Source of the DNA: Lysobacter sp.
GTDB taxonomy: Bacteria > Pseudomonadota > Gammaproteobacteria > Xanthomonadales > Xanthomonadaceae
Direction: 5' to 3'
Assembly (NCBI GenBank): GCA_013141175.1
Contig: JABFRN010000001.1
Location: 3,492,001 to 3,556,000, forward strand
Length of the DNA stretch: 64,000 nt
In this document: positions 48,085 to 53,373 of the stretch, in pieces
How the letters are laid out: each line of letters begins with the position of its first letter
How positions within the stretch are numbered: the stretch's first letter is position 1
The notes under the pieces: model-generated
What the model saw: only the letters and a program-made list of their open reading frames with translations
Told to the model about the DNA's origin: nothing
The model's database searches: none
Program-made: the position numbers and the translations under genes

Positions 48085-49581
48085 TCAGGACAGGCCGAGC
48101 GCAGCGAGCAACCGCTGGATCCAGTTTTGCTCATCGCGCTGGCGCGCGCGGATCGCACGCGAGCTTTCGCGCATCGATTCGCCGTACGCGGGCTGCGGAT
48201 TGGCCGGCAGATTGGCCATGATCCGGGCTTCGTCCGTGGCCAAGTACTGCGGCGTGAGATCGGTGCCCTGGAAAACGCCCATCGGCGTGTAGCCGGTGTA
48301 GCCGGGGAAGACCGTGCCGAGTTTGTTGTTGCCCATGCGCCGGATCAGCAGTTCCGAGAACACGCGGCGGAAGTCGGTGGTCACCGGCACGTCGCCGAAA
48401 TACGGCGACAGGACCTGCGGATCGAGACCCAGCCACTGGCCGTAGAACTTCCGTCCGTTCACCGGTCCGCCGAGGACCAGCATCGGATTGCCGTAGCCGT
48501 GGTCGGTGCCGCTGCTGCCGTTCTGGCGCACGCGACGGCCGAATTCCGACTGCACGATCACGGTGACGCGCGCGGCTTCGCCCCCGGTGTTGAGGTCGTT
48601 GTAGAACGCGGTCAGCGCTTCGGAAAGTTCGACGATCTTGTTCTGGTAGTAGTGGTAGCCGCTGCCGGCGGTGCCTTGGCCGTCGTGGGTGTCCCAGCCG
48701 CCGAGGTCGAGCGTGGCGATCCGCAGGCCGAGGTTGAAGCGGATGGACTGCGCGACCGTCCACAGTTGGCGGGCGAAGTTGGTGGTGGGCCATCCGGCCG
48801 GAAGCGTCGAGGTATACGCCTGCTGGCCGATCACGCGCAGCGCGGAATCGGCGCGCAGGCCGCCGACTTCGACACCGGTCTGACCGGTCCACAGCGACGC
48901 CAGCGTCTCGTTGAGACCCTTGGTGCCGGCAGGCATGCCGCTGCGGAACTTCTGCCACTGCCAGGCACCGGTATCGAGCGAAAAATCGGTGGGGCTCGGC
49001 ATCGACAAGGCTTCGGTCGAGCCCAGCAGGTTGGCCGGCTGACGGCTGTTGACGGCAACGACCGGCATCACCGGGTTGCCAGTGACGCCCGGTTGGGTAC
49101 TCCAGGCGCGGGTGAGCCAGCCGCTGCCGCCGCCCTGCTGTCCGGGGGTGCCGAGATCGAGGTACAGCTGCGCGTCGAAGTGGCTGCGGGTGACCACTGT
49201 CGGCATGCCGCAGCTGTGCACGATCGCCAGCTTGCCGGCGTCCCACAGGCCTTTCAGTCCCGTGGCGGCCGGATGCAGGCCGAAGCCCGTGGCGGCGCCG
49301 CTCGCCAACGTCAGCGGCAGTGCGCCGTAGGTGCCGCTGGCGGCGATGTTCAACGAGGGGCGCGCTTCCTCGTAAAAGGTGCGGTCGTTGCCGGAGACGG
49401 GCGGCACCAGATTCAGCCCGTCCATGCCGCCGCGCAGGAAGACCAGGACCACGGTGTCGTAGGTGTTGACCGCAGCCTCCGCTTCGCTGGAGAACAGCAG
49501 GCCGGGGCCGGCGGCGCCGACGGCGGCGGTGGCGCAGGCGCCCTTGATGAATTCGCGACGATCGATGTGGAGCTCGGACAT
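48085..49581 (-). CDS. DUF1501 family protein, copy 1
   Basis: DUF1501 proteins belong to the alkaline phosphatase/sulfatase-like superfamily and are usually exported; their role is not established. This 498-residue protein has a twin-arginine signal with RREFIKG (8-14) and a hydrophobic stretch, then the conserved VLVFLRGGMDGLNLVPP. It is the downstream gene of a DUF1800-DUF1501 pair and resembles copy 2 throughout, including near-identical C-termini (LLAALGLS). A 267-base inverted repeat element lies directly upstream. Confidence 0.85.
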   Translation of the reverse strand: MSELHIDRREFIKGACATAAVGAAGPGLLFSSEAEAAVNTYDTVVLVFLRGGMDGLNLVPPVSGNDRTFYEEARPSLNIAASGTYGALPLTLASGAATGFGLHPAATGLKGLWDAGKLAIVHSCGMPTVVTRSHFDAQLYLDLGTPGQQGGGSGWLTRAWSTQPGVTGNPVMPVVAVNSRQPANLLGSTEALSMPSPTDFSLDTGAWQWQKFRSGMPAGTKGLNETLASLWTGQTGVEVGGLRADSALRVIGQQAYTSTLPAGWPTTNFARQLWTVAQSIRFNLGLRIATLDLGGWDTHDGQGTAGSGYHYYQNKIVELSEALTAFYNDLNTGGEAARVTVIVQSEFGRRVRQNGSSGTDHGYGNPMLVLGGPVNGRKFYGQWLGLDPQVLSPYFGDVPVTTDFRRVFSELLIRRMGNNKLGTVFPGYTGYTPMGVFQGTDLTPQYLATDEARIMANLPANPQPAYGESMRESSRAIRARQRDEQNWIQRLLAALGLS

Positions 49582-49586
49582 GGTTC

Positions 49587-49853
49587 AGAGCCTGTTGTTG
49601 GTCTCCCCATGTTCCGCGCTGACCCGGCAGGGGCGCGGAGCAAGGAGGAGTGAGTGAATGGATGTCGATCCACGACCGAGCGAGGACGCGGCGCCGCGCC
49701 CCTGCCGGGACAGCCCTGCGGGTTGTGCCGCAGAGCGGCCCTGACGCCCGCGCGTCGCTTGACCAGACCGCCTGTCTGGCGCTGCGCGACGCGCGGTCAC
49801 CAGAACCGCTCTGCGGCACAACGCGGAATATGGGGAGACCAACAACAGGCTCT
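49587..49853. mobile_element. MITE-like palindromic element in the DUF1800-DUF1501 junction
   Basis: Perfect 24-bp terminal inverted repeats occupy 49587-49610 and 49830-49853 (outer end AGAGCCTGTTGTTGGTCTCC), extending about seven more bases with one mismatch. Inside are two further inverted pairs: 49623-49638 with 49694-49709 (16 bp, core CCGGCAGGGGCGCGG), and 49722-49738 with 49806-49822 (17 bp), the latter enclosing 49749-49758 with 49786-49795. It carries no transposase. The paralogous junction at 53364-53373 is only 10 bp, supporting insertion. No clear target duplication is seen. Confidence 0.7.
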
Positions 49854-49857
49854 CCCC

Positions 49858-51645
49858 TCAGCGGCTCATGAATTCGGGGGACATCAGGATCAGCGCGACC
49901 ATGCTGCGCAGGCGTTGCTGGTTGTAATGCGCCTTCGGATTGCCGGCTGCCCAGGTATCGGTATCGGCGATGACCTCGGTCGCGGTGCCGTTCTGGGCCA
50001 TGAACGCGACCAGCGTCTGCCGGCGCGACGCGACCGGCAGCGCGCCGAGAATGCGCTGGCACCAGAAATCGACGAGATTGTTCGCGGTCCAATTGCTCAC
50101 GTTGCTGCGCGTCAGGTCGAGGATCGGCGCCATGAACACGCTGTTCTCGCTGGTTTCGCTGATCCAGTTCAACAGCTTCCAGCTCATCGCGTAGCTGTTG
50201 GACCCCGACCAGGCGACGCCGGTGTCCGGGTAGCCGTTCGGCGCCGGCCATTCGTAGGGCATATTGCCGGTGAAACTCATGCGCCAGAACAGTTCATCGC
50301 TTTTCGGGTCGCCGACGCGCGTCGTCCAGTCGGATCCCAGCGCGCGCAGCGTGGCGGCGGCGAGCTCGAACGGACGGCGGTTCTTCTGGCCCCAGCTGTG
50401 GATGAAGGCGTTCGACAACAGGATATGGCGCAGGGTCAGCGCGATCTGGTTCGGGCTTTGCCAATTCGCGCGGAAGATCGCTGCGGCGCTGTCGATCAGC
50501 GCCTGATCGGGTTTGTCGGAGATGAAACGGCGGATCAGCTTCTTGCAGATGAATTTGGCGACGCGCGGATGGCTGGCGAGGCGGTCGAGGATGTCGCGAC
50601 CGTCCTTCATCGACGGTTGTTCGGGATTGAGGAACTTGCCGAGCACGAATTTCGGGCCGGAGTCGTGCCACGCCTGACGATAGACGAAGGTGCCGTCGTC
50701 CTCGGTCGGATATTGCCAGTGGCCGTCCTTGACCGACCAGCCGGTGAATGCGGAAGCGGTTTCGTACACATCCACATCGGTATAGCCGATCGGATACGTG
50801 GGGTCTTCGGGGCAGGGCGGGACCTGGAACGGATCGACGAATCCGAGATAGTTCTCGGCGCCCAGCGTGTGCAGTTCCAGCAGCTCGCGCGCGAAGTTTT
50901 CGTTGGGGCCCGAGCGCGTGTTGGAAGCGTTGTCGAGGAAGTACATCATCGATGTGCTCTGCGCGACCGCTTCGAGCATCGTGCGGAAGTTGCCGAGCGA
51001 GTTCGCGCGGATCACATCGCGGTTGTAGTGCACATACACCGGACCACAGGAGAAATCGGTGACAGTGACGTTGAAGTGGTTGTGCCAGAAGCCGACCATC
51101 ACTTCCTGCAATTGGCGCTTCGAATGCACCGCGCGCACCAGCGCCGATCTCTGCACTTCCCAGGCGGGGCGCATGCGGATGTCGTAGACCGGATCCGGTG
51201 CGACATGGTCGGCCCACAGTTGGGTCAGACTCTTGCCGAGCGTGGTGTAGCCGGCGCTGGCGAGACGGGTGTCGAGCGCACTGTCGTCGATCGCCGCTGG
51301 ATTGAGCTGCTGGTCCACGAAGGCGGTCAGTCGCGCGGTGTCGTTGGCGCCCAATGCGTTGAATTGCGACACCAGCGTCGGCGTGACGCCGTAGGTCAGA
51401 TGATTCAGGGCGCGCACCGCGAACGGCGCGCGCTGCAGGGTCAGCAGTTCGGCCTGCGAAATATTCGCCGCCGATGGGCCGGACATGCGCGGGGTGCGCT
51501 GGGACACGGCGACCGCGTCGGGAGTCGCGGCTTCGGGCAGGCGGTTCGGCGGAGACTTGAAGCGGAGAGGACCTGCAAGCCCGTATCGACGGGCGATCAC
51601 GGTTTGCATCGCTTTGCGGCGTGAATTCGAGAGCGGTCTTGCCAT
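49858..51645 (-). CDS. DUF1800 family protein, copy 1
   Basis: DUF1800 proteins occur next to DUF1501 genes in many proteobacteria and planctomycetes; their function is unknown. The 595-residue product has the family segments MVGFWHNHFNV (DFWQNHFNV in copy 2), YYLNNRSN-like SMMYFLDNASN, and the ending MSPEFMSR. The start ATG 51645 has GGAG at about 7 bases; longer starts at 51663 and 51684 are possible. No obvious signal peptide is seen. It is the upstream gene of pair 1. Confidence 0.85.
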   Translation of the reverse strand: MARPLSNSRRKAMQTVIARRYGLAGPLRFKSPPNRLPEAATPDAVAVSQRTPRMSGPSAANISQAELLTLQRAPFAVRALNHLTYGVTPTLVSQFNALGANDTARLTAFVDQQLNPAAIDDSALDTRLASAGYTTLGKSLTQLWADHVAPDPVYDIRMRPAWEVQRSALVRAVHSKRQLQEVMVGFWHNHFNVTVTDFSCGPVYVHYNRDVIRANSLGNFRTMLEAVAQSTSMMYFLDNASNTRSGPNENFARELLELHTLGAENYLGFVDPFQVPPCPEDPTYPIGYTDVDVYETASAFTGWSVKDGHWQYPTEDDGTFVYRQAWHDSGPKFVLGKFLNPEQPSMKDGRDILDRLASHPRVAKFICKKLIRRFISDKPDQALIDSAAAIFRANWQSPNQIALTLRHILLSNAFIHSWGQKNRRPFELAAATLRALGSDWTTRVGDPKSDELFWRMSFTGNMPYEWPAPNGYPDTGVAWSGSNSYAMSWKLLNWISETSENSVFMAPILDLTRSNVSNWTANNLVDFWCQRILGALPVASRRQTLVAFMAQNGTATEVIADTDTWAAGNPKAHYNQQRLRSMVALILMSPEFMSR

Positions 51646-51860
51646 CGGTGGACTCCAAGTCATGCCTCGTGAACAGGCAACCACAGCACTATAGGCCGGA
51701 TTTCCATGGCAGATCGGGAAGCCTCAGCAGCCGATCTGTGACGGAGGCCGCGATCCCGTCATCCCGTCGTTCCCGATGTCGGAGACGTGGAGGCGCCATG
51801 TCCGCTGCGGCGTCAAAACAGGCCGTCGGAACGGCCTGGGTTGTGCGGCACGCAGATCGA

Positions 51861-53363: not shown

Positions 53364-53373
53364 CGGACAGTCC

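Follow-up and report, generated by a model that had tools for sequence, protein, structure and literature searches.

A dispersed MITE with IS5-type ends and a predicted four-way fold at a DUF1800/DUF1501 junction in Lysobacter

The window considered here, meaning the whole stretch of DNA that was analysed, comprises 64,000 nucleotides of a Lysobacter sp. genome (NCBI GenBank assembly GCA_013141175.1, contig JABFRN010000001.1, positions 3,492,001 to 3,556,000 of the forward strand). On its minus strand a DUF1800 gene (PF08811, ending at 49858) is followed by a DUF1501 gene (PF07394, starting at 49581), and the 276-base gap between them holds a 267-bp element; in a second, paralogous pair of these genes the gap measures 10 bases (53364-53373). 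A first-pass annotation had proposed both gaps, along with a MITE-like block that has perfect 24-bp terminal inverted repeats (TIRs), at least two further internal inverted pairs and no transposase. Measurement and an inverted-repeat search bore this description out. The search returned terminal arms of 40 nt (49587-49626 and 49814-49853, 90% complementary, the first 24 positions perfect) and two internal pairs (49719-49758 with 49786-49825, 85% complementary; 49618-49641 with 49691-49714, 92% complementary). With a length under 500 bp, TIRs and no coding capacity as judged by inspection, the element has the usual attributes of a MITE. Its parts and surroundings are as follows.

49587..49853, plus strand: the 267-bp element in full, of which 49588-49852 is probably the mobile unit; the tandem G.A arm folds on the plus strand
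49587..49617, plus strand: P1 left arm, terminal stem (TIR), outermost bases similar to IS5-family ends
49618..49714, plus strand: P2 arm, placed on this strand by wobble pattern and folding energy
49644..49687, plus strand: P2 top, a hairpin with ATGTCGAT together with four tandem motifs (G.A/A.G), whose G.A columns are conserved better than any other part of the family
49714..49722, no strand: P3 mini-hairpin CCC-TGC-GGG, a TNC loop on one strand and a GNA triloop on the other
49722..49822, minus strand: P4 arm, placed by wobble pattern and folding energy, with family-wide fixed C.A positions (G.T on the minus strand)
49823..49853, plus strand: P1 right arm, terminal stem (TIR)
48085..49581, minus strand: DUF1501 gene, downstream of the insertion
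49858..51684, minus strand: DUF1800 gene, upstream of the insertion
53364..53373, minus strand: paralogous junction without the element

In the window copy the TIR stem is 31 bp long, with 30 of the 31 outer pairs Watson-Crick and one G.T, and the element as a whole is predicted to fold much more stably than shuffled sequence (z = -15.8 with DNA and -15.6 with RNA parameters; 0 of 200 shuffles as good). Rfam's best match overlapping the element region had E 4 and 22.5 bits, below the cut-off of 50; across five loci with copies its sole match was a 6S RNA outside the element. In that locus (L182), the copy at 1337-1604 lies some 700 bases from the 6S RNA gene (445-631). No relative of the element was found among plasmids and phages by blastn, or among viral contigs with one pattern.

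The junction itself supplies evidence of insertion. The DUF1501 gene is present in all 10 congeners searched, and the orthologous junction before the best-matching gene lacks the element in 7 of 7 readable congeners, with gaps of 1-13 bases; orthology here means best protein match rather than synteny, and the count leaves out G005, G006 and G007, where the junction at the best-matching gene was unread. In the closest congener, G002 (94% identical protein), the junction reads TGA-GGAGAGCCTCC-ATG. A unique block conserved in position across relatives, the outcome that the first-pass annotation had set against its own proposal, is excluded by these empty junctions.

Relatives of the element are numerous. 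BLAST returned matches in 19 of 59 genomes, the window's own among them, many partial or weak; the full-length matches have unrelated flanks, so that the expected signature, similar ends shared by several copies in differing surroundings, was recovered. A core pattern drawn from the best conserved part, at no more than 3 mismatches, occurs in 59 of 398 sampled genomes of the order (own included), 16 in one family (f1) and 43 in another (f12) with 0 in other families, and reaches 27 matches in a single genome (G235); read backwards, it had no match in the same 398 genomes. A stricter pattern, matched exactly, retrieved 23 stretches in Lysobacter, Luteimonas, Vulcaniibacterium, Dyella, Rhodanobacter and other Lysobacteraceae. 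Most matches have a G+C content of 57-75%, and most full copies measure 264-268 nt. Sequence search can miss such elements: the window's own genome has one copy visible to BLAST, and a second full copy (2913433-2913699), which BLAST missed and a structure model found, shares 58% identity with the window copy. Outside that genome copy numbers come from the P2 pattern, which is blind to copies without P2.

Most comparisons below use 77 copies, namely the unique matches, 255-295 nt long, that a purine test for the strand accepted out of 215 aligned matches on both strands; the test excluded four full-length matches on the better strand (L024, L025, L051 and one in L066). The window copy is at best 75% identical to any of the other 76. 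By a simple gene call from codon composition, 0 of the 77 copies lie inside a gene. Both neighbours could be called for 48, giving 36 copies between codirectional genes (23 with the genes running against the element, 13 with it), 10 between divergent and 2 between convergent genes. Judged by both flanks, only two groups of copies share a site, L062/L072/L076 and L179/L191; the flanks of L154 and L165 are related, about 270 bases out of register. The first group occupies one site common to a Dyella and two Rhodanobacter genomes, and some insertions thus persist across genera.

YTNAR or TNA targets and frameshifted genes are features of IS5-family elements. At the ends of 76 copies (one copy without flank being left out), the commonest letters spell CTNA at the left end and TNAG at the right. 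The triplets at the TNA position agree between the two ends in 12 copies, where 4.9 would be expected and 0 of 500 shuffles did as well; this is the best of 12 offset and length settings, one other of which likewise gave 0 of 500. We take this pattern to be that of IS5-family elements. In the window copy the target triplets are imperfect (TCA / TCC), and its mobile unit probably spans 49588-49852, with a 3-bp target on either side.

Candidate transposases with matching terminal repeats, which the first-pass annotation had put forward as the way to identify the mobilising element, do exist, though none in the window's own genome. L117 of G010, one of the DDE transposase loci of the genus, encodes in a single frame a 260-aa IS5-family protein (NF033580) between ends TAGGGCCTGTTAACAC and TAGGGCGTGTTAACAC. 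A search with that protein gave matches in 13 of 198 genomes of the family, and ends equal to TAGGGCCTGTTAACAC or about one letter off were present at 15 of 30 loci, amounting to 8 elements in 6 genomes; such ends match copies of the GGGCC type, for example AGGGCCTGTTAACACTTATGG of L217. The window copy is of the AGAGCC type, as is an IS5 element of G235 that carries AGAGCCTGTTCAAAGTCTC at both ends; its putative transposase gene consists of two overlapping frames, and three copies retrieved from that genome start with AGAGCCTGTTCAAAATCTC. The window ends (AGAGCCTGTTGTTGGTCTC) and those of the G235 element disagree at 4 of 19 letters. Searching the window's own genome with the L117 protein brought up no match; no insertion sequence with matching ends was found there, and its two DDE_Tnp_1 loci both have other ends. 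The interior of the element, searched by structure model in 6 IS loci, gave no match. Among 30 Y1 transposase loci of the genus, a sample that does not cover every RAYT, no matching end pair was seen, and a Y1/RAYT partner was set aside.

Taken together, the dispersed copies, the empty orthologous junctions and the IS5-family elements with matching ends uphold the initial MITE reading. There is good support for a MITE with IS5-type ends, and good though indirect support for its mobilisation by transposases of the IS5 type.

Other short elements share this kind of end. In the genomes G005 and G006 (L094-L102), units of 60 to 410 bp have AGAGCCTGTTCAAAAT-type ends, as in the element family, around different interiors, and several passengers thus seem to use one kind of transposase. 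Two elements, of 190 bp (L096:1048-1237) and 143 bp (L102:1205-1347), differ from each other but have the same ends, and lie at what appears, from 15-base flanks, to be the same chromosomal site in two related genomes. The window's own genome (G000) holds a 164-bp unit (C1:1532387-1532550, L087) with AGAGCCTGTTC ends around a long palindrome containing GTCATTCCCGCGAAAGCGGGAATCCAG; at L091:1521 this repeat recurs in a second end.

The consensus fold of 22 aligned copies joins the TIR stem P1 and three arms, P2, P3 and P4, without unpaired bases, and an earlier three-way model was dropped once this alignment fold had been made. In these copies 96.8% of cells are paired; shuffled controls reach 77.2% and slid ones 33-42%. 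Of the 98 pairs, 67 have changed on both sides. Across the 77 copies, 95 of 97 predicted pairs are at least 75% Watson-Crick; within those 95, 6994 of 7294 cells (96%) are Watson-Crick and 26 pairs show all four pair types, each in at least 2 copies. The P2 "loop" of the alignment fold zips up in its turn as G-C, GA/AG, A-T, GA/AG, G-C, C-G or other, GA/AG, two mostly G-C pairs and GA/AG, the A-T position being G.G in 10 copies, the window copy among them. Cells of the tandem mismatches are G.A in 595 of 616 cases among the 77 copies; 57 of these were retrieved with a pattern containing G.A letters, and copies found by BLAST were therefore counted apart, giving 144 of 152 for the 19 in the set and 167 of 176 for the 22 of the first alignment. 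The inner TIR is the least conserved region measured (0.72 bits), and the P3 loop varies among copies as TNC or GNA. Covariation and conserved non-canonical pairs are both observed, and on this basis selection on the fold is strongly supported. A leader peptide in P2 was rejected by inspection, the conserved stretch there co-varying as pairs.

Since G.T on one strand is A.C on the other, the ratio of the two shows which strand is constrained. Among the 77 copies the G.T and A.C counts are 48 and 10 in P2, 37 and 9 in the P2 top, 16 and 99 in P4, and 55 and 44 in P1. Corrected for kinship by clustering at 80% (37 representatives) they are 20 and 2, 23 and 4, 8 and 43, and 26 and 17 in the same order, and in the 19 BLAST-found copies 16 and 6 in P2, 4 and 30 in P4, and 11 and 11 in P1. 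G.T is rare throughout (3-4% in P2, 2% in P1, below 1% in P4), and six weak places in P4 are C.A or A.C, that is G.T on the minus strand, in 206 of 459 cells. P2 thus tolerates G.T and not A.C, as expected of an arm built on the plus strand, and the reverse bias of P4 places that arm on the minus strand. Folding energies point the same way: P2 folds better on plus in 73 of 77 copies and P4 better on minus in 71 (DNA) or 74 (RNA) of 77, while the whole element has no comparably clear preference. The excess of G.U over A.C on one strand by which structured non-coding RNAs are recognised is accordingly present in P2, reversed in P4 and absent in P1, whose lack of clear strand bias is unlike typical RNA. 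Polarity is the same whether neighbouring genes run with (13 copies) or against (23 copies) the element, and is therefore a property of the element and not of its insertion sites.

The explanation we favour, at a probability of about 0.7, is that of an IS5-moved MITE whose persistence is tied to its four-way fold and which provides direction-independent RNA structure in read-through transcripts. It would be a non-autonomous element of the Lysobacter and Dyella families, mobilised in trans by transposases of the IS5 family through recognition of its ends, as the shared ends, target pattern, dispersal and empty sites suggest. Lineages would persist as long as they fold into the junction of the 31-bp P1, the plus-strand P2, P3 and the minus-strand P4. 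Each strand would then build just one arm well, that closest to its own 5' end; on transcription from either flank the first arm to emerge would fold at once, a step that we infer, making the element an RNA structure indifferent to direction. Such folding of read-through RNA from either side fits the well-built 5'-proximal arm of each strand. Within the window, the element separates the DUF1800 stop from the DUF1501 start and may lower translation of DUF1501: by inspection, the 20 bases before the start codon (49582-49601) contain no GGAG-like stretch, unlike those of the sister genome G002, and on the strength of this sequence difference it seems reasonable to suppose weaker DUF1501 translation after insertion. 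Roles as a separate small-RNA gene or as a terminator found no support. Around the window copy no sigma-70-type promoter or terminator pattern was found. For a separate small-RNA gene the expected promoter place would be the poorly conserved inner TIR, and for a terminator role the small number of copies between convergent genes (2 of 48 classified) is unfavourable.

Single-stranded DNA fits the evidence nearly as well as read-through RNA. On that account P2 would be extruded from the single-stranded plus strand and P4 from the minus strand, to be recognised by a protein in replication or transposition, with no role as RNA; we put it at well under an even chance. The tolerance of G.T by the arms is compatible with single-stranded DNA too, and the unclear strand bias of P1 (55 G.T, 44 A.C), the independence of polarity from gene context, and the TNC or GNA alternation of the P3 loop, GNA triloops being a DNA-stable form, all lean towards it. 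Shortened copies do likewise. Among 20 distinct shorter matches, most of them found via P2 so that losses of P2 are invisible, P4 is shortened but still paired in seven (L042, L063, L064, L077, L194, L209, L215), and in three (L078, L150, L185) both P3 and P4 are missing at the junction; the window's own genome also contains a bare P1 hairpin of 62 nt. The short L209 copy (1445-1624) has very different terminal arms (CGGACTCTCCCTTCC) that still pair. Copies without P4 show that this arm is not indispensable. These deletions suggest that hairpins can form in DNA, but not that the DNA form is what is selected, and to our knowledge nothing in IS5 transposition requires an internal fold. A tentative synthesis, to which we give a little less than an even chance, is that of a two-faced mobile nucleic acid. 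A functional arm near the 5' end of each strand would meet transcription or replication arriving at either flank, and selection acting on the element would preserve the fold across two bacterial families even as most letters of the stems change.

Template switching (quasi-palindrome correction) can homogenise the arms of inverted repeats, and an unselected fold maintained in this manner could show changes that merely look compensatory. We consider this unlikely. The very high Watson-Crick share (96%) and the lack of clear strand bias in P1 would suit it, as would the comparison of L062 with L072 at their shared site, where 6 double Watson-Crick changes stand beside 11 single ones, so that arms can change together in place. 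The course of change with distance argues otherwise: copies at least 90% identical differ mostly by single changes (75 double, 211 single), and the share of double changes then climbs with distance through 0.61 and 0.75 to 0.81, in counts that take all pairs of copies and are not independent. Such a course points to step-wise compensation rather than arm copying. Moreover, no double Watson-Crick change separates the closest pairs at shared sites (L072/L076 and L179/L191), the fixed-place mismatches (tandem G.A; C.A in P4) persist uncorrected, and the wobble bias is opposite in P2 and P4. At shared sites, constraint or repair may also act in place. Least probable by far is a host regulatory structure conserved at the DUF1800/DUF1501 junction, which the position between two codirectional genes would allow, but which is refuted by the empty junctions in seven of seven readable congeners and in the paralogous pair, copies elsewhere having unrelated flanks.

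MITEs are usually regarded as what insertion sequences leave behind; the architecture of this family stays close across two bacterial families, and the family's conserved four-way fold, co-varying arms and opposite strand bias of P2 and P4 are unusual for a MITE. It should therefore provide a handle on whether MITE folds in bacteria arise as by-products of repeats or are selected, and if selected, on which strand and in which nucleic acid.

Searches of open-licence papers brought up none on the element family, and known systems offer partial parallels. BIMEs unite hairpins of opposite strand in one unit, and the REP / BIME repeats (GTAG- or CGTC-tagged palindromes) resemble the family in this respect, whereas the long TIRs and the lack of a matching end pair at the 30 Y1 loci of the genus set it apart. 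PMC3733652 treats MITEs as a separate group beside REPs, and its main text makes no mention of Xanthomon-, Lysobacter, Rhodanobacter or Dyella. The BOX, RUP and SPRITE repeats of Streptococcus pneumoniae are interspersed like the family, and RUP uses an IS transposase; the pair-by-pair covariation over genera, the tandem G.A motifs and the arms of opposite polarity distinguish our element. BOX and RUP are described in PMC3049150 as tightly folded with their TIRs hybridised to each other, and covariation or compensatory changes go unmentioned in its main text.

Correia / NEMIS elements of Neisseria are short, TIR-bounded, folded MITEs as well, and are mobilised in trans. By description, the present family differs in being G+C-rich, in having ends of the IS5 type, and in its four-way junction with a tandem G.A arm and arms on opposite strands; MITEs are typically AT-rich, and Correia / NEMIS transcripts are cleaved by RNase III at the TIRs, according to the review PMC10969869. 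MITEs with IS5-family ends have the ends and target pattern in common with the family, which is distinguished from them by an interior without a recognisable IS remnant (6 IS loci) that is conserved over two families.
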